Shown here in pieces: positions 8,358 through 48,489 of a stretch of 64,000 nucleotides of DNA. The position numbers and the translations under genes are program-made. The stretch covers positions 356,534 through 420,533 of the forward strand of contig JAVKFU010000015.1 of the NCBI GenBank assembly GCA_040223695.1, read 5' to 3'. Within the stretch, counting starts at the first letter, position 1. Every line of letters starts with the position of its first letter. The DNA comes from Deltaproteobacteria bacterium (GTDB lineage: Bacteria > Desulfobacterota_D > UBA1144 > Nemesobacterales > UBA2774). The notes beneath the pieces were generated by a model, which searched no databases, was not told the origin of the DNA, and saw only the letters and a program-made list of their open reading frames with translations.

Positions 8358-9304
8358 TCTGCTTTTTCCTCCTCTCCGAAGTGTGGAGGCGGATTTCCAA
8401 AAAGCACCCAGGAAGGATATTTTTTAACCGTCTCCATGAATTCCCTTACGTCCTCCGAAATACGTTCCACGTTCTCCATTGTAGTTTTGATATTATGTTC
8501 CCTGCTTGATAACAATCGGTCGGCGCGTCTCAAGGCGAATTTGAGGTCGGTTGAGATCTGCGAGATGTTAGCGACGGTTTCCTTTGTTTCCTTACTTTTC
8601 AAAATGGAGTCGATTTCGTTCGTAGTCTTATCAAGGGTAGTTACAAGCTGTTGCAAATCCTTGCTCAGCTCTCCTATCTCCGCCTGCTCAACCGCCTCGT
8701 TCAGGGAATTTACCAACTTTTCAATATCCTCGGAAATTTCTTGAAAATTAATTTTCTCTATAGCCGTGGTAAGCTTTTCAATAGTCTGCGTGATCATTGT
8801 GATCGTTCCCGGCGCAGAGGGTATATACTGGTATTCGGGCGTCCAGTTTATCTCCAGAGGCGGATAACGCTCAGGCGGGAAATATACCGCGTTCAGGAAC
8901 GCTATACCGGTCACGCCCTGAGAGGCGAGTTGCAGCCTCAGTCCTTTTCGTATCATTTCCCGAATACTGCTTTTCCTGTCGAAATCACCTTGATATACTC
9001 GTTCGTTTCCCTTCCCGTGCACTTTATTCGGGAATATTTCCGCCCTTATAAGAACATACTGATAGTCCGTCTTGTATTCATTAAAAACGAAGCCTATGTG
9101 GCTTACATTGCCTATCTGTACCCCCTGGAATTTAAGCGCGGCTCCGACGTCCAGACCCTGAACCGACTGGTCGAAATACGTTTCAACGGTGTATTTTTCC
9201 TCCAGGAACTTGCCTCCGCCGAAAAGTATTATCGCCCCCGCGAGGAGCAGGAACGCCAGTATGACAAACAAGCCTGTTTTGAAGTAGTTAGCTTTCTGAC
9301 TCAT
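8354..9304 (-). CDS. mlaD: MlaD/Mce-domain substrate-binding protein
   Basis: A 316-residue protein with an N-terminal transmembrane anchor (about residues 8-29), one Mce domain (about 37-120, including VQGLDVGAALKFQGVQIG) and a long alpha-helical C-terminal half (about 160-295) with heptad-like spacing. It ends with the YPSWVLFGNPPP motif common in Mce proteins of this type. Mce proteins form hexameric rings in the periplasm that carry lipids between membranes. It sits between the ATPase and the PqiC-like lipoprotein genes and is probably part of a trans-envelope tunnel or shuttle. Confidence 0.9.
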   Translation of the reverse strand: MSQKANYFKTGLFVILAFLLLAGAIILFGGGKFLEEKYTVETYFDQSVQGLDVGAALKFQGVQIGNVSHIGFVFNEYKTDYQYVLIRAEIFPNKVHGKGNERVYQGDFDRKSSIREMIRKGLRLQLASQGVTGIAFLNAVYFPPERYPPLEINWTPEYQYIPSAPGTITMITQTIEKLTTAIEKINFQEISEDIEKLVNSLNEAVEQAEIGELSKDLQQLVTTLDKTTNEIDSILKSKETKETVANISQISTDLKFALRRADRLLSSREHNIKTTMENVERISEDVREFMETVKKYPSWVLFGNPPPHFGEEEKAE

Positions 9305-9327
9305 ATCTATTTATACCCGCCTCTGTA

Positions 9328-10104
9328 TTATTCGATTCCGAGTTGTTCATCGGTCTGTCTCCTGAAAAATTTCTGCACAACCGAAATGGTTGAATTATCG
9401 CGCAGATACTCGGGCTTGCCGGTTGCGATAATGCCCTTTGTGCTCTTATCAAGCATAATAACTCTGTCGGCTATGTTGTAAATACTGTTAAGCTCGTGCG
9501 TAACGATAACGAATGTAACTCCAAGGGTGTGCGAAAGCTGTATGATAAGCTCATCAAGCTCCGCTGATGTTATGGGGTCCAGCCCGGCGGACGGCTCGTC
9601 GAGAAACAGTATGTCGGGATCGAGCGCCATAGCCCTCGCGAGCGCGGCGCGCTTGATCATCCCCCCGCTAAGCTCGGAAGGCATTTTATTCTCGGACCCC
9701 GTAAGGCCCACCAGATTGAGCTTCATTCTTCCTACCAGTTCCATGGCTTCACTGTCCAGGTCCGTATATTCTTCAAGAGGGAGCATTACATTTTCAAGCA
9801 CCGTCATAGAGCCGAATAGCGCCCCCGACTGGTACGCTACCCCTATTCTTTTCAATATATCGATTCTCTCGCTGCCCTCCGCCTGCGTAATGTCGTCGCC
9901 TTCTATGACGACGCTGCCGTGAGCGGGCCTGATCAAACCTATCATATGTTTGAGCAGAGTGCTCTTACCGCAGCCCGAGCCTCCCAATATTATGAACTTT
10001 TCGCCCTTATAAACATTGAATGAAATGTCATCAATAATTACCGTGTCCCCGTAGGCCGCGGTAAAATCACTGACTTCGATTATTATTTCTTCATGTTCCG
10101 TCAT
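9328..10104 (-). CDS. mlaF: Mla-type ABC transporter ATPase
   Basis: A 258-residue ABC ATPase with Walker A GGSGCGKST (about residues 37-45), signature LSGGM (about 144-148), Walker B ILFLDEPSAGLD and switch His in VTHELNSI. It is most like MlaF, which powers phospholipid transport with MlaE. It lies one base from the upstream permease gene, in the order mlaE-mlaF-mlaD-pqiC, so it is surely in one operon. Confidence 0.93.
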   Translation of the reverse strand: MTEHEEIIIEVSDFTAAYGDTVIIDDISFNVYKGEKFIILGGSGCGKSTLLKHMIGLIRPAHGSVVIEGDDITQAEGSERIDILKRIGVAYQSGALFGSMTVLENVMLPLEEYTDLDSEAMELVGRMKLNLVGLTGSENKMPSELSGGMIKRAALARAMALDPDILFLDEPSAGLDPITSAELDELIIQLSHTLGVTFVIVTHELNSIYNIADRVIMLDKSTKGIIATGKPEYLRDNSTISVVQKFFRRQTDEQLGIE

Positions 10105-10105
10105 T

Positions 10106-11254
10106 TTATATGCCCAGCACGTAATAGAGGACTCCGAAAATTCCGTCCACGATAATCATAAGTATAATGCCTGTTACGACCGCCCTTGTGGCGGCGTCTC
10201 CCACCGCCGAGGGACCCCTCGAAGCCCTCATACCTGCAAGACACCCTACCCCCGCTATGATTACTGCGAAAAAGAGGGTCTTGAAAAGGCCCGCGAGCAG
10301 CATTACGTAAGTGCCCGACGCGGTGATCTGATTTATATATGTCGAGAAGGTATAGCCCAGAGACATAATCACTACAAGCCCCCCTATGAGTCCGAATAGA
10401 TTGCCGAAAACGGTGAGCAGGGGCAGCATAAAAAGAGCCGCGATTACCTTGGGGAGTACCAGAAATTTTACGGGATCGAGCCCCATCGTATTAAGGGCGT
10501 CGAGCTCTTCATTTACCTTCATAGTGCCGAGCTCGGCGGCAAACGCGGAGCCGCTCCTGCCGTTCACCACAAAAGCCGTCATTAACGGGCCCAGCTCCTT
10601 GAAATAGGCTATTACTATCAGATCGGCCACAAAAACGTCGGCGCCGTATGTTTTCATCGGTATGGCGGATTGAAACGCTATTACGAGCCCAACCAGAAAA
10701 TTTACAAGAGCAATAATAAAAAACGAATTGGCGCCGAATTTCTCCGATGTAAGAAGCACTTCGCTCCATCTGACTTTGAAGGGGTTGAGGAGGGCTCCCG
10801 CAAGCGCCGCTGTGATTTGTCCGGTAAATATGATATGTATCTTGATCTCTTCCCATACTTCATATGATTTTTCCCCTATCCTTACTATCGGATTTTTCGT
10901 TGATTCTGCGTCCGGTTGTGCAGTTTCTGAAAAATCCTCGGGCTTAAACAGCTCGTATAATTTGAGCAGGTCCTCCCGCAACCCCTCTATTTTGTAACTC
11001 CCCCCTCTTTGTCTCTGATGAAGGCCCAGCTCCATTAAAAGAGCAATACCGGAGGCATCACAGTACTCTATACCTTCGGCTTCGATTATAAGCTTGTTCG
11101 GTTTGGATTTTTCCACTGCGCTCAGGGCGGCTTTCCAGACCTCTCCCGTCGTATAAACGTCGAGGCGGCCCATAATTTTTAGTCTGAGAGTGTTACTGTC
11201 GTCTGCAACCGCTTCGAGCGTAGGAAGCGAAGAGCCGGAGCCTGAATTGTTCAT
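10106..11254 (-). CDS. mlaE: MlaE permease with fused N-terminal STAS domain
   Basis: A 382-residue protein combining a STAS domain (about residues 10-110, with the YCDASGIALLMELG strand-helix) and an MlaE permease domain (about 135-380, with five to six hydrophobic helices and the conserved GRSGSAFAAELGTMKVNEE loop). In Escherichia coli the STAS function is a separate protein, MlaB, so here the two are fused. The permease is the inner-membrane half of the retrograde/anterograde phospholipid transporter. It is the first gene of the mla operon. Confidence 0.92.
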   Translation of the reverse strand: MNNSGSGSSLPTLEAVADDSNTLRLKIMGRLDVYTTGEVWKAALSAVEKSKPNKLIIEAEGIEYCDASGIALLMELGLHQRQRGGSYKIEGLREDLLKLYELFKPEDFSETAQPDAESTKNPIVRIGEKSYEVWEEIKIHIIFTGQITAALAGALLNPFKVRWSEVLLTSEKFGANSFFIIALVNFLVGLVIAFQSAIPMKTYGADVFVADLIVIAYFKELGPLMTAFVVNGRSGSAFAAELGTMKVNEELDALNTMGLDPVKFLVLPKVIAALFMLPLLTVFGNLFGLIGGLVVIMSLGYTFSTYINQITASGTYVMLLAGLFKTLFFAVIIAGVGCLAGMRASRGPSAVGDAATRAVVTGIILMIIVDGIFGVLYYVLGI

Positions 11255-11353: not shown

Positions 11354-12406
11354 ATGAAAGCCGATGCGCCTTTTGTACGGAATCTGGATGCCGTTTATCA
11401 CGTCGAGATATTTCTCGTTTGCGCGGTAGCGGCGATACTATCAATCCGCCTGTTTCTTCATATGACCGGATACCCCCAAATCGGCAACAGCACTCTCCAC
11501 ATCGCGCATATGCTGTGGGGGGGACTCCTTATGCTGGTCGCCATAGTTATGCTGTTTTCATTTATCGGCGAGCGTATCGAGCTCTGGGCGGCAATACTGG
11601 GGGGAGCGGGCTTCGGGACTTTTATAGACGAGGTCGGGAAGTTCGTAACGAGCGATAATAACTACTTCTTCGAGCCCTCGGTCTCGATTATGTACATAGT
11701 TTTTATTCTGATAGTGCTTTCGATACATATGATCAGGTCAGGATGGACATTCACGGAAAAAGAATTTCTCGTGAACGCGCTCAGGGGACTTGAGGAAATA
11801 GCGCTCAGGGACCTCGACGAGGACGAGAAAAATAAAGTGATGCGCTATCTGGAAAAAAGCGAACCCGGTAATCCTCTGACAAAGGCGCTCACGGATATAG
11901 TAACAAGCTCCGCACTCGTGCCCGCACCCGAGCCCGGCTTATATACAAGGGTCAAGAAGGCTTTTAGAGGTTATTATGAGAGGATTGCGGGTTATCGTTA
12001 TTTCAAAACAGCTATCGTTATTTTCTTCTTGCTCCAATTGATCATAACGTTATCTTACGTGGCCATTTTTACAGTTTTTATAGGTCTCGGCCCGGATAAA
12101 TTTCTGAATATAAAAATCTTCGAAACTGTTGCCGACAGGCTTACCGGCCTTACGTTCATAGGCAAAGCTCAGATTTTCTCTTCCGCGTTATCGGGCTTGT
12201 TCGTATTCCTGGGGGTATATTACATAAGGAAATCCAGGCTCACCGCTTACAGGATGTTCGAGCGCTCGGTGCTCGTTTCGATATTGCTTACCTACGTATT
12301 TATATTCTACAGGGAGCAGTTTGCGGCCCTGGCCGGACTAGCGTTTAATATGTTTATATTGATCGGACTCAGGATAATGATAAAGAGGGAAGAGCAAAGG
12401 TCATAA
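11354..12406 (+). CDS. Polytopic membrane protein, unknown function
   Basis: A 350-residue protein with about eight hydrophobic segments: four in the N-terminal half (about residues 18-37, 50-70, 75-90 and 108-128), a soluble central domain of about 85 residues rich in charged helices (130-212), and four in the C-terminal half (about 217-243, 270-292, 305-320 and 322-343). The pattern LHIAHMLWGGLLMLVAIVM and GGAGFGTFIDEVGKF is conserved-looking. I recognise it only as a hypothetical membrane protein. A GGAG motif precedes the ATG, and it diverges from mlaE. Confidence 0.65.
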   Translation: MKADAPFVRNLDAVYHVEIFLVCAVAAILSIRLFLHMTGYPQIGNSTLHIAHMLWGGLLMLVAIVMLFSFIGERIELWAAILGGAGFGTFIDEVGKFVTSDNNYFFEPSVSIMYIVFILIVLSIHMIRSGWTFTEKEFLVNALRGLEEIALRDLDEDEKNKVMRYLEKSEPGNPLTKALTDIVTSSALVPAPEPGLYTRVKKAFRGYYERIAGYRYFKTAIVIFFLLQLIITLSYVAIFTVFIGLGPDKFLNIKIFETVADRLTGLTFIGKAQIFSSALSGLFVFLGVYYIRKSRLTAYRMFERSVLVSILLTYVFIFYREQFAALAGLAFNMFILIGLRIMIKREEQRS

Positions 12407-12442
12407 AAAACGCAGGATTACGGACTGGATGCTTTTGCCGAA

Positions 12443-13312
12443 TTATCCTAATGAAACGCCCCGGGACATGTAATAAATCAGAATAAAATAATACGATACA
12501 GGGAACACGAAGATAAGGCTGTCGAACCTGTCCAGCACGCCTCCGTGGCCGGGTACGATAGCGCCCGAGTCCTTGATACCCGCCCCCCTCTTGATGGAGG
12601 ACTCTACCAGGTCTCCGAATACAGCCGCAGCCGCGATTATAATGGAAAACAGTATCGTCCAGTCCGAATTTAGCGGCGAGCCGAAACCGTAGTTGACCAC
12701 GAGCCCCGTAAGTATGCACGCTGCCACCCCTCCGATCGTGCCTTCGACGGTTTTGCCGGGACTAATCCTCGGAGAGAGTTTATGTCTGCCTGTATAGAGT
12801 CCCGTAAAATACGCTCCGGTGTCGTTCAAAAAGGTGCACGCGACGGTGAAGAATATGTAGAAGAACCCCGGATCGGAAAGCCCTTCCCGGGTGAGGCTGA
12901 ATAATTTTATCCCCTCCATGTCACTTATGTTCCTGACTAGCACGGCATGGCCGAGAAGCCAGCCGAGATAGATAATACCCAAGAGCGTAGCTCCGGCCCT
13001 CGTAATCGTGCTGCCTTCGCTTGTTTTCCTCAGCCCAAGTATGAGAACCAGGGCAACCGATAGTGTAAAGAAGAGTGAGAAATAGATGAATCCAATATAG
13101 GAAGATACGGCCAGGAGCAGCGACAGCACTATTCCCGAGTATTTGCCGTGCGGTATTTTTCTGGACTCGAGCAGATTACCGTATTCGATCTGACCGACTA
13201 GAACCAGAGCCATGATGAAGACCAGATAAACTATGCCCCCCAGCCTGAAAATCACGTACAGTATGGGTACCGCTACGGCAGCTGTTAGTATTCTCATCCA
13301 TAAGTTGCTCAT
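12443..13312 (-). CDS. cdsA: Phosphatidate cytidylyltransferase
   Basis: A 289-residue integral membrane enzyme that makes CDP-diacylglycerol from phosphatidate and CTP. The CdsA signature is complete near the C-terminus: Ser-Ser-Ile-Lys-Arg, Lys-Asp-Ser-Gly, then Pro-Gly-His-Gly-Gly-Val-Leu-Asp-Arg-Phe-Asp. The SPGKTVEG segment around residue 180 and about eight hydrophobic helices also fit. It is not in the usual uppS-cdsA-dxr cluster. The ATG is not preceded by a clear ribosome-binding site, and it shares a 49-base divergent spacer with the PurN-like gene. Confidence 0.93.
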   Translation of the reverse strand: MSNLWMRILTAAVAVPILYVIFRLGGIVYLVFIMALVLVGQIEYGNLLESRKIPHGKYSGIVLSLLLAVSSYIGFIYFSLFFTLSVALVLILGLRKTSEGSTITRAGATLLGIIYLGWLLGHAVLVRNISDMEGIKLFSLTREGLSDPGFFYIFFTVACTFLNDTGAYFTGLYTGRHKLSPRISPGKTVEGTIGGVAACILTGLVVNYGFGSPLNSDWTILFSIIIAAAAVFGDLVESSIKRGAGIKDSGAIVPGHGGVLDRFDSLIFVFPVSYYFILIYYMSRGVSLG

Positions 13313-13361
13313 AATTTACAAGTAGATATAATTTCCCTGACCTGAATTATATTGCAAATAT

Positions 13362-14141
13362 ATGAATAAACCACAACATAGCACCGAAGATATTGAAGTG
13401 ATTTTTAAGCCTGAGCAGAGGCCGATGAGCGTTGCCGTATTAGTTTCCGGCTCCGGGACCAATTTCACCGCGATTTACGAGGCGGAGAAGAGGCTTGAGG
13501 AGGCGGGTGAGAAGCAGTACGGGAGAATAGAAGCCGTATTCACCAATGTACCTCGTTGTAAAGGCGCCCTCAAGGCACGAGAATACGGCATTCCGGTTAT
13601 AGGCCTGTCCTCGAAAATCTACTTCGACACGCTCGGCAGGAGCGCCGATGACGAGGAGGCGAGAGATTACTATGACTCGGCTGTAATCACCCTTCTAGAG
13701 CAGGTATGCGCTCCCGATATCATTGTGCTTGCCGGTTACAGAAGAAGGCTCGGAAATGTGTTTCTCTCCAGATATAAAAACCGTATCGTGAACCTGTACC
13801 CGGGGGATATCATAAAAGATTATCTTGTGAGAGGGGTGGACGCTCCGGTGCAGGCAATCAGGGCCGGAGAGAGCAGCATTAAATGCACCGTGTATCTCGA
13901 GAAGGCGGGTGAGCGCTTCGGTCCCGCCATAATGCAGTCGCGGCCCATATCGCTTGAAGGCTTCAGGGAGGACGACGCGCATCGGATGAACGAGCGCATA
14001 CGCCGTGAGGGGGAATGGAAAATATTCCCTTACGCTGTGCATGAGATTATCGCCAGGGGCAGGCTCGGCATAGACGGGAATGATAATCTCTACCTCGACG
14101 GTAAAAGGCTCGGAAAAGGCGGTTTTCAGCCGGGCGGTTAA
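13362..14141 (+). CDS. PurN-like formyltransferase homologue lacking catalytic residues
   Basis: A 259-residue protein that aligns through its length with PurN (GAR transformylase): the GSGTNF phosphate loop at about 30-35, the APDIIVLAGYRRRL strand at about 117-130, and a C-terminal DGNDNLYLDGKRL element. A 21-residue extension precedes the domain. Key residues are changed. Using E. coli numbering, Asn106 is kept (here Asn144), but His108 is Tyr146, His137 is Tyr178 and Asp144 is Arg185. It is therefore unlikely to transfer formyl groups and may act as a binding or regulatory protein, or use another chemistry. No purine gene lies nearby. The ATG has no ribosome-binding site. Confidence 0.75.
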   Translation: MNKPQHSTEDIEVIFKPEQRPMSVAVLVSGSGTNFTAIYEAEKRLEEAGEKQYGRIEAVFTNVPRCKGALKAREYGIPVIGLSSKIYFDTLGRSADDEEARDYYDSAVITLLEQVCAPDIIVLAGYRRRLGNVFLSRYKNRIVNLYPGDIIKDYLVRGVDAPVQAIRAGESSIKCTVYLEKAGERFGPAIMQSRPISLEGFREDDAHRMNERIRREGEWKIFPYAVHEIIARGRLGIDGNDNLYLDGKRLGKGGFQPGG

Positions 14142-14177
14142 AATTTGCCGGTAAATATTCCGGCGGCGCTTAATATA

Positions 14178-15869
14178 TTACCCCTGTTTCCCTTTTTCCC
14201 TTGCCCAGGTATCTCTCAGGGTTACGGTTCTGTTGAATACGGGCGACCCCGCTTTCGAATCCACGCAGTCGGGGGTGAAATAGCCGAGCCTCTCGAACTG
14301 ATAATTAACTCCGGGCTTCGCGGCGGCGAGGCCGGGCTCCAGATAACAATCATCGAGCACAATGAACGATTCGGGGTTCAGAAAATCGGTATAATCTCCG
14401 CCGTCTTCTTTGCTCCCGGGCTCGGGGACTGTGAATAGCGGTTCGTAGAGCCTTACTTCGGCTTTGATCGCGTGTTTCGCGGATACCCAGTGGATTGTGG
14501 CTTTGACCTTCCTCCCGTCGGGAGAGTCCCCTCCCCTGGTCTCGGGATCATACGTGCAGTGTACTTCTTTGAGTTCCTCCCTTTCGTCTTTTACGACGTC
14601 CGTGCATGTTACGAAGTAGCCGTACCTCAGCCTCACTTCCCTGCCGGGGGAAAGCCGGTAGAATTTTTTTGGCGGGTCTTCCATAAAATCGTCGCGCTCT
14701 ATGTATAATTCCCTTGAAAATGGAATCTTCCTGTTGCCCATGCTCTCGTCCTCGGGGTTATTCACAGCGTCCATCTCCTCGCTGAGGTCTTCGGGGTAGT
14801 TTGTAATTACTACCTTGAGTGGGTTTAAAACCCCCATCACCCTGAGCGCTCTCTTGTTGAGGTCTTCCCTGACGCTGTGCTCGAGAAGCGATATGTCGAT
14901 TACGCTCTCCTGTTTTGTCACCCCTATCCTGCTGCAGAAATTTCTTATCGCCGCTGATGTGTAACCCCTCCTCCTGAGCCCCGATACGGTAGGCATCCTG
15001 GGATCGTCCCAGCCGGATACGTATCCTTTTTGAACGAGCTCAATGAGTTTTCTTTTGCTTAAAACGGTGTAGGTCAGGTTCAGTCTGGAGAATTCTATCT
15101 GCTGCGGGTGGTATATGCCGAGCTCATCCAGAAACCAGTCGTAGAGGGGGCGGTGATCCTCGAATTCGAGCGTGCAGAGTGAATGGGTTATCCCCTCAAT
15201 CGAGTCGGATATGCAGTGGGCGTAATCGTACATGGGATATATAAACCACTTGTTCCCCGTTCTGTAGTGGGGCTCCGTCAAAATCCTGTACATGACAGGG
15301 TCCCGCATATTGATATTGCCCGAAGCCATATCTATTTTCGCCCTGAGCACGTGAGCGCCTTCCTCATATTCGCCGTTTTTCATACCCTCGAAAAGGTCCA
15401 GATTTTCTTCAACCGGCCTGTTCCTGTAGGGACTCTCTTTTCCAGGCTCGCTGAGTGTCCCCCTGTACTCCCTTATTTCATCGGGCGTGAGGCTGTCCAC
15501 GTACGCCTTCCCATCCTCAATTAGCTCGACGGCGTAATCGTAGAGCTTCTGGAAATAGTCTGAAGCGTAATAGAGTCTGTCGTCCCACCCGTAGCCGAGC
15601 CATTTGACGTCGCTCTTTATGGCTTCCACGAACTCCGTCTCTTCCCTGGTCGGGTTCGTATCGTCGAACCTGAGGTTGCACGTGCCGCCGTACTCCTCCG
15701 CTATGCCGAAGTTAAGGCATATGGATTTCGCGTGTCCTATATGGAGGTATCCGTTAGGCTCCGGGGGGAATCTCGTGGCTACCCTGCCTCCGTACTTGCC
15801 GCTCGCATTGTCCTCTTCGACAATTGTCCTTATGAAATCGAGGCTCTTTTTTTCCGTATTCTGATCCAT
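14178..15869 (-). CDS. glnS: Glutaminyl-tRNA synthetase
   Basis: A 563-residue class I aminoacyl-tRNA synthetase. The HIGH motif (YLHIGHAKS), the adjacent PPEPNG loop and the VLSKRKL version of KMSKS are intact, and the C-terminal anticodon-binding beta-barrels are full length. The length matches GlnRS (about 550 residues) rather than GluRS, and the family-typical [17 protein letters not shown] start supports GlnRS. A GTG at 15884 in frame would add five residues, but the ATG at 15869 with AGG upstream is the better start. It is convergent with the PurN-like gene. Confidence 0.95.
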
Positions 15870-15965
15870 CTTACCTATCCGCACGGGAAATTTTCCGGAA
15901 TTAATATTATACGATTGCCCGAAAACATCAAAAATAAAGTCCCGCGAAAAAATTGAAATATTTTA

Positions 15966-15995
15966 TTGACTTATCCGTTCTTGAACCATTAAAAT
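15966..15995 (+). promoter_or_regulatory. Promoter of hemB, implying a leaderless mRNA
   Basis: TTGACT at 15966-15971 and TAAAAT at 15990-15995 are separated by 18 bases. Transcription would begin within one or two bases of the ATG at 16004, and there is no ribosome-binding site before that ATG. Confidence 0.5.
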
Positions 15996-16003
15996 AATCC
16001 ATA

Positions 16004-16987
16004 ATGTATTTTCCCTCGTACAGACCCAGAAGATTAAGAAAGAACGCCCGACTGAGAGAAATGATAGCCGAGACCCGGATATCCCTCAGTGACCTCATAT
16101 ACCCCATGTTCGTAAGACCCGGGAGAGGCAAAAGGGAAGAAGTCGCGTCCATGCCCGGCATCTACAAGCAGTCGATCGACAATCTGGTAAAGGAAGCGAA
16201 AGAGGTCAGAAAGCTCGGCGTGAGGTCCATACTGCTGTTCGGTATTCCCGACCACAAGGATGAAGCAGGCTCCGAAGGGTACGACGAGAACGGGATTATT
16301 CAAAAAGCGCTCCGGGAACTAAAGAAGAAGGTCAAGGAACTCACTCTCATCACGGATGTCTGTATGTGCGAATATACGAGCCACGGCCACTGCGGGATAA
16401 TAAAGGACGGGGACGTCGATAACGACGAGACAATTGAATATTTGGCCAGGATGTCGCTTTCGCATGTCAGGGCGGGCGCCGATATGGTAGCGCCTTCGGA
16501 TATGATGGACGGAAGGGTCGGTGTAATAAGGGATGTACTCGATGAGAACGGATACGAGAATATTCCGATAATGGCCTATTCCGCGAAATACGCATCCGCA
16601 TTTTACGGACCTTTCAGGGACGCGGCCGAGTCGCCCCCCCAGTTCGGGGACAGGCGCAGTTATCAGATGGACCCTCCCAACGTGAGGGAGGCTCTGAGGG
16701 AAATTGCGCTCGATATAGAGGAAGGGGCTGACATAGTGATGGTAAAGCCCGCGCTCTCCTATCTGGATGTAATCAGGGCGGCCAGGGAAGAGTTCAGTCA
16801 TCCCGTAGCGGCCTATAACGTTAGCGGCGAGTATTCTATGGTAAAGGCCGCCGGCAGGCTCGGATGGATAGACGCAGAGCTTGTCATGATGGAGATACTG
16901 ACCAGCATTAAGAGGGCCGGGGCCGATATGATTCTTACTTATCACGCGAAGGACGCGGCCAGGTTGATTAATAAAGCAAAGAAATAA
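16004..16987 (+). CDS. hemB: Delta-aminolevulinic acid dehydratase (porphobilinogen synthase)
   Basis: A 327-residue enzyme that joins two 5-aminolevulinate molecules into porphobilinogen, the first common pyrrole of haem, sirohaem and cobalamin. The zinc-binding triad Cys120, Cys122 and Cys130 is present in [14 protein letters not shown], so it is the zinc-dependent class. Both active-site lysine segments, [13 protein letters not shown] and [10 protein letters not shown], are intact. The length matches the family. A small DUF4177-like gene follows after three bases. The nearby B12-dependent metH would use the same tetrapyrrole route. Confidence 0.96.
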
Positions 16988-47477: not shown

Positions 47478-47722
47478 TACTTTTTACGCTCCATGATAAA
47501 GTTAACGGCGTCCTGTACCGTAATGATCGATTCAGCGTCTTCATCGGAAATCTCAAGTCCGAACTCGTCTTCCATAGACATAATTAACTCTACCAGATCG
47601 AGTGAATCCGCACCCAGGTCTTCTATAAAAGAAGATTCGGGTGTAATCTCATCCTCCGACTTGCCCAACTGACTCGCGACCATATCTTTTACTTTGCCTA
47701 GAATTTCCTTTTCCTGAGCCAT
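47477..47722 (-). CDS. acpP: Acyl carrier protein
   Basis: An 81-residue acidic four-helix protein with the phosphopantetheine Ser in Asp-Ser-Leu-Asp ([13 protein letters not shown], about residues 34-46). It carries growing acyl chains. It is placed between fabG and fabF, as in most bacteria. Confidence 0.98.
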
Positions 47723-47742
47723 TTTTACTACCTCCTTACGGT

Positions 47743-48489
47743 TTAAGTATATATTCCGCCGTTCACCCTGACCACCTCACCCGTTATATATGATGCTTCC
47801 TCGGAGGTCAGAAAAGCAACGACCCCTGCCACGTCCTCGGGTGAACCGAACCTGCCCAGCGGTATTTTTTCAATATATTGATTTCTTATTTCTTCCGGCA
47901 GATTGTTCGTAATATCAGTCTCTATAAAGCCGGGGCTTACCGCGTTTACCGTGATAGACCTGGGAGCCATTTCCCTCGCGGCTGCCTTGGTGAACCCGAT
48001 AATACCCGCCTTCGAGGCCGCATAGTTCGTCTGTCCCGAATTGCCCATCTCTCCCACTACCGAGGTGATATTGACAATCCTGCCGTACCTCTGTTTGATC
48101 ATAATGCGAGTTACTGCCTTGGTGCAGTTAAATACACCGTTGAGATTGGTGGTGATTACATTTTCCCAATCCTCGAATTTCATCCTCAAGAGTAGCGTGT
48201 CCTGCGTAATGCCCGCATTGTTGACAAGTATATGAAGTCCACCCTGCTCAGTGACAATTTTTTCCACCTCTTCCTGTACCGACTCAAAGTCGGAAACACT
48301 GAAACAGGCTATTTTGCCCTTTCCCCCGGCCTTTTCAATCTCCGACAGCACTTTTTTTGCCGCATCCTGGTTTTTCTGGTAATTAATAACCACAAAAGCG
48401 CCGTCTCCGGCAAGCCTGAGCGCGATTGATTTTCCTATTCCTCTCGAACCCCCCGTGATAAGCGCTACCTTTTGCTCAATTTCTCCCAT
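47743..48489 (-). CDS. fabG: 3-oxoacyl-ACP reductase
   Basis: A 248-residue short-chain dehydrogenase. The NADPH loop is TGGSRGIG (about residues 13-20), NNAG is at about 90-93, and the catalytic Ser, Tyr and Lys lie in the ITSVVGEMG and YAASKAG segments. It reduces 3-oxoacyl-ACP. Its 5' end overlaps fabD by 14 bases. Confidence 0.97.

Follow-up and report, generated by a model that had tools for sequence, protein, structure and literature searches.

The closest described relatives of the protein studied here are GAR transformylase (PurN; model TIGR00639, structures 1cde and 2gar), the formyltetrahydrofolate deformylase PurU and, more remotely, Fmt, ArnA and other formyltransferases. PurU has an ACT-like domain at its N terminus, and Fmt, ArnA and the other formyltransferases carry extra domains. 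Met89 and Ile91 of E. coli PurN, the numbering of which is used below for all PurN positions, are taken here to line the folate pocket, and residues 170 and 173 presumably contact the ribonucleotide. His108 and Asp144 are named as catalytic residues of GAR transformylase in the available text of one study (PMC3261824), Asn106, His108 and Asp144 are given as the catalytic triad in that of another (PMC4786211), and Ile91 stands among the active-site residues tabulated in a third (PMC4887040).

The window, that is, the whole 64,000-nucleotide stretch of DNA that was analyzed, encodes a relative of these enzymes, referred to as the window protein:

13362..14141, + strand: PurN-like gene, 259 amino acids, predicted GAR transformylase fold (ORF, PF00551, TIGR00639, model and structure match)
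13362..13424, + strand: N-terminal extension, residues 1-21 (common to the sister family described below)

The reading frame opens with an ATG at 13362 and its stop codon ends at 14141, giving 259 residues. The product scored 66.1 bits against Pfam PF00551 (Formyl_trans_N), which is above the Pfam cut-off, and 103.1 bits against the NCBIfam PurN model TIGR00639, which is below the cut-off of 150.1. The family score was not reached with the PurU model TIGR00655 either (21.2 bits, cut-off 285.95), and no match to the NCBIfam Fmt or ArnA models was found at E values up to 1. The best sequence match in the PDB was E. coli GAR transformylase 2gar (phmmer, E 3.3e-18, residues 22-255). An AlphaFold2 model built from 29 relatives had a mean pLDDT of 92.8, with the N-terminal extension ordered from about residue 8-11, and its comparison with E. 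coli PurN 1cde using Foldseek and VIA-align aligned all 209 residues at 1.7 Å with a Z score of 26.8. A second GAR transformylase, 3tqr, gave a Z score of 27.2, while the homologous domain of PurU reached up to 21.3 and Fmt, ArnA and other formyltransferases, which have the same superfamily fold and are 13-19% identical to the window protein, gave values of 17-18. On the strength of this model the window protein is assigned the GAR transformylase (PurN) fold. An alignment artefact was ruled out, since phmmer, MAFFT and the full-length structural match all concurred, and the full-length alignment with GAR transformylase reported in the first-pass annotation was thereby borne out, as was its statement that the fold, the substrate loop and the C-terminal element had been retained.

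Relatives of the window protein were present, at E <= 1e-30, in 34 of the 57 genomes of the phylum that were searched, and no internal stop was listed in any of the 34 carriers. No match was found in the other 23, which comprise families f5, f7 and f8 together with some single genomes; the f8 genomes are about 1 Mb in size. The median dN/dS was 0.143 over 45 of the 406 possible pairs, namely those with dS between 0.1 and 1.5. The window family is under purifying selection, and the gene represents one conserved family across the lineage rather than a single odd gene. A normal PurN scoring above the curated cut-off was also found in 31 of the 34 carriers (12/14 plus 19/20), so that the window family is not standing in for an absent PurN. 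The exceptions were G003, G012 and G016, which are 77-88% complete and in which the window family was present and no normal PurN was found; these could rely on the window-family protein. The PurN of G017 was barely above the cut-off (151.1 bits) and sits on a long branch. In the genome of the window itself, where the first-pass annotation had advised looking for a normal purN, one lies at C17:3584-4138 (235.6 bits); the same genome has a PurU-like gene (C9:29076-29618) and another Formyl_trans_N gene (C18:104395-104934). One genome that lacks the window family, G021, was observed to have two adjacent PurN genes above the cut-off (C13:46827-47306 and 47545-48105).

When the search was widened past the phylum, to 290 genomes, four longer relatives were recovered outside it (in G141, G281, G236 and G254), and searches with an alignment of those four added G327, G096, G241 and G292, a fragment in G379 and pieces in G293. 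The loci of this sister family include the following:

L094:2174-2986, + strand: sister family gene
L095:8576-9361, + strand: sister family gene
L096:7532-8380, + strand: sister family gene
L097:545-1321, - strand: sister family gene
L136, L145, L146 and L147: further sister family loci

Both the sister and the window family have the N-terminal extension, one additional residue ahead of position 173 and a common C-terminal motif, and comparison of their profiles gave E 3e-38 over 243 columns. The five sister proteins that were scanned scored 72-112 bits on the PurN model and reached no curated equivalog cut-off; the family possibly corresponds, we assume, to the CDD entry 'FMT_core_like_3'. 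None of the 10 sister carriers had a normal PurN above the cut-off, compared with 10 of 11 phylum-mates that lack the sister gene (Fisher test, p 3.4e-5, a value that ignores relatedness). PurM was found in all 10 carriers, above the cut-off in nine and in pieces in G293, and PurT was found above the cut-off in none of the four sister genomes tested. In G236, the sister gene is directly followed by a split purH in the form of two overlapping ORFs (L096:8398-9078 and 8927-10333). Because all 10 carriers are without a normal PurN while purM was found in each, it is simplest to suppose that the GAR transformylase of these genomes is the sister protein, and the sister family looks like an unrecognised and probably under-annotated GAR transformylase.

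The residues of the window protein that correspond to the active site of PurN were located as follows:

13446..13463, + strand: SGSGTN loop, residues 29-34, equivalent to phosphate loop 8-13 of E. coli PurN, kept (phmmer, alignment)
13740..13748, + strand: Arg127-Arg128-Arg129, equivalent to Met89-Arg90-Ile91, with 89 and 91 now Arg (alignment)
13791..13793, + strand: Asn144, equivalent to Asn106, kept (alignment)
13797..13799, + strand: Tyr146, equivalent to His108, in an NLYPGD motif (alignment, phmmer)
13893..13895, + strand: Tyr178, equivalent to His137 (alignment, phmmer)
13914..13916, + strand: Arg185, equivalent to Asp144, in an RFG motif (alignment, phmmer)
14001..14003, + strand: Arg214, equivalent to Gln170, invariant in the window family (alignment)
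14013..14015, + strand: Glu218, equivalent to Glu173, kept (alignment)

Conservation at these positions was followed in an alignment of 29 window-family members from the 34 carriers (L024 and L026, cut by contig ends, were among those omitted), eight sister sequences from the 10 sister genomes (leaving aside the G379 fragment and the G293 pieces) and 46 PurNs, 45 of them from the searched genomes and one from E. coli; side-chain geometry was inferred from this alignment rather than read from the model coordinates. Like PurN, the window protein has the phosphate loop, Asn106, Glu173 and the C-terminal region, whereas His108, His137, Asp144, Met89 and Ile91 are replaced. Asn106 was kept in all 83 aligned sequences, in keeping with what had been noted for the window protein alone. 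At position 108, the window family had tyrosine in 29/29 members, while histidine was present in 8/8 sisters and 46/46 PurNs, and at position 144 arginine was likewise found in 29/29, compared with aspartate in 8/8 and 46/46. Position 137 was tyrosine in 20 and phenylalanine in nine members and histidine in all sisters and PurNs. The Tyr/Tyr/Arg pattern initially described therefore holds for the window protein, and its first and last residues for every aligned homologue of the family, but not as a fixed triplet. On the folate side, position 89 was arginine in 29/29 (methionine in 8/8 sisters and 42/46 PurNs), and position 91 was arginine in 27 and lysine in two (isoleucine or leucine in 8/8 sisters; I 36, L 5, M 3 and K 2 among the PurNs). 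On the ribonucleotide side, S8, G9, G11 and N13 of the phosphate loop were kept, N13 in 28/29, position 170 was arginine in 29/29 and lysine in 8/8 sisters, and position 173 was glutamate in 29/29 and aspartate in 8/8 sisters. D149 of the window protein was present in 28/29 members. Altogether, 13 positions were fixed (at least 28/29) in the window family and rare in the sister and PurN groups, and seven of these (R127, Y146, G148, Y154, R185, F186 and R214) fall in active-site segments, as assigned by us from the E. coli numbering.

The replacement pattern lies far beyond chance, because positions 108 and 144 were invariant even though the proteins compared share just 49-69% identity with the window protein. 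To judge from the alignment, the catalytic and folate-side residues were exchanged together and the ribonucleotide side was left as it was, because 108, 144, 89 and 91 are replaced while the phosphate loop, the cation at 170 and Glu173 are retained. The sister family differs from the window family in having the full N/H/H/D set (8/8 aligned), Met89, Ile or Leu at 91 and Asp at 173, and in the lack of a normal PurN in its genomes. Because the sister shares the extension yet keeps N/H/H/D, the N-terminal extension appears to be ancestral and the catalytic loss specific to the window lineage; the 21 residues had previously been described as added, but on this comparison they were not gained along with that loss.

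In a first tree, PurN (100/97), the window family (100/99) and the sister family (100/100) formed three monophyletic groups. A second tree, with PurU and Fmt rows added, was prepared from 16 of the 29 window-family rows, 24 of the 46 PurN rows and all eight sisters, leaving out the long row L202, and here the window and sister families together formed one side of a branch (98/92). The outgroup and the PurNs did not each fall on one side of a branch in this second tree, in which long branches meet, and the root is therefore uncertain. The grouping of the window and sister families is independently supported because of their common insertions and ends. Our reading is that an extended, catalytic PurN would have lost its catalytic set once, in the window lineage, and that the altered form was then kept. 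A viral origin was considered and set aside, as 12/12 PurN-like genes of viral contigs (L061-L072) keep N/H/H/D and resemble ordinary PurN. Plasmid matches were likewise discounted: the best 20 of 61 records were 28-32% identical, and wherever a record named the feature under the match, that name was purN. A literature search, which reached few subscription journals, found nothing on the window family. Against the literature searched the family is new, a rebuilt branch of the GAR transformylase fold that is spread across the taxon.

The gene is flanked on its upstream side by the following features:

12443..13312, - strand: cdsA-like gene (CTP_transf_1, PF01148), divergent neighbour (Pfam)
13313..13361, no strand: short region between the two divergent genes; part of its sequence recurs in relatives and is probably the cdsA promoter (by eye)

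In 30 of the 34 carriers, the immediate upstream neighbour was a divergently oriented cdsA gene. Three of the remaining four were cut by contig ends, and in G041 the 1.5 kb available upstream held no cdsA. The downstream flank varied by family, with Rieske, TIM-barrel and other genes outside the window's own family, in which this flank is presumably a glutaminyl-tRNA synthetase, named from its sequence. No Rfam match was found at 12300-16100. The recurring intergenic stretch looks like a cdsA promoter. It was not accepted as proof that cdsA and the PurN-like gene are co-regulated, because it lies on the cdsA side and extra sequence precedes the PurN-like gene in L075, L076 and L014. The intergenic region is some 250-260 bases long in L075 and L014, and the insert in L075 resembles, by eye, a repeat element.

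The window protein was probably rebuilt for another task, which agrees with the original proposal that it is kept for a different job, a proposal now strengthened by the breadth of the family, its low dN/dS and the coexisting normal PurN. On balance, we favour a conserved protein of the GAR transformylase fold in which the ribonucleotide side was kept and the catalytic and folate side rebuilt, and which would hold a phosphoribosyl compound together with an anionic ligand. The retained phosphate loop, together with Arg214 and Glu218, would bind GAR or a similar phosphoribosyl compound, while the former folate pocket, with Arg127, Arg129 and Arg185, would accommodate the second ligand, which may be a phosphate, a carboxylate or a nucleotide, and Tyr146 and Asn144 could join in holding it. 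Such a protein might regulate by binding a metabolite, or it might catalyse a different reaction that does not involve folate; it would not be the cell's GAR transformylase. A sharper form of this explanation, to which we attach a minor but appreciable chance, is that the protein still transfers a group to a phosphoribosyl amine but takes it from an anionic donor, for instance formyl phosphate or some other acyl phosphate, with the arginines binding the donor and Tyr146 serving as acid/base; our confidence in the two readings overlaps because one is contained in the other. The retained ribonucleotide side and the constancy of the polar pocket residues (R127, Y146 and R185 in 29/29, D149 in 28/29) at about 50-69% identity are consistent with it, and a formate-based formylation of GAR, by PurT, is described in the available text of PMC3261824. 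However, a normal PurN is already there in 31/34 carriers, and no metabolic gene besides cdsA clusters with the window-family gene.

Loss of the catalytic residues could instead point to a pure pseudoenzyme that acts by protein contacts, for example as a partner of PurN or, through CdsA, of lipid synthesis. The lasting divergent pairing with cdsA in 30/34 genomes, while the other flank varies between families, would fit, although such a pairing can be neutral or serve the cdsA promoter only; moreover, the replacements are located in the ligand pocket, and a protein serving purely as a scaffold would not have to keep that pocket constant. We regard this explanation as unlikely. It is distinctly improbable that, as a folate-free relative binding a purine intermediate and an anionic ligand, the protein couples purine to membrane lipid synthesis via cdsA, whether by sensing or by catalysis with a new donor. 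Formyl-folate chemistry is unlikely to have been preserved, and formyl-folate, earlier suggested as a ligand, is disfavoured by the arginine or lysine that replaces Met89 and Ile91 in 29/29 members. A nucleotide, the other ligand suggested at the outset, or a phosphoribosyl compound may be bound, for which the retained phosphate loop, the cation at position 170 and Glu173 speak. Some GAR transformylase mutants retain part of their activity, and the window protein may show residual catalysis. Nevertheless, it seems highly improbable that the protein has remained a GAR transformylase dependent on folate, its active site being no more than unusual: Asn106, the fold and the GAR-side residues are retained, and three incomplete genomes lack a detected PurN, but His108 and Asp144 are gone, the folate-side residues are now arginine, the PurN score is 103.1 against 150.1, and a normal PurN accompanies the family in 31/34 carriers. 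Decay of the gene, which lost catalytic residues and the absence of matches in 23/57 genomes might suggest, is scarcely credible and was rejected, as it had been at the outset, given reading frames intact as listed in all 34 carriers, purifying selection and replacement residues that are themselves invariant.

On the favoured reading, a ligand-binding protein with a rebuilt folate side, the window family would offer a clean natural case in which the fold of an essential-pathway enzyme had its catalytic and cofactor side swapped as a unit and its substrate side left in place, and both a catalytic sister family and normal PurN are available for comparison. Window-family proteins pass the PF00551 cut-off and could readily be given the name PurN in annotation, an error by which metabolic reconstruction would be misled.

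The NLYP sequence of the window protein bears a passing likeness to the NLYP motif of PurH. By eye, no purH was found among ORFs of at least 150 amino acids in the 20 kb around purM and the 14 kb around purN of the window genome. Elsewhere in the window, positions 11354-12406 (+ strand) encode a probable membrane protein of 350 amino acids without a Pfam match, and its relatives occupy the corresponding position in several genomes of the family to which the window belongs.
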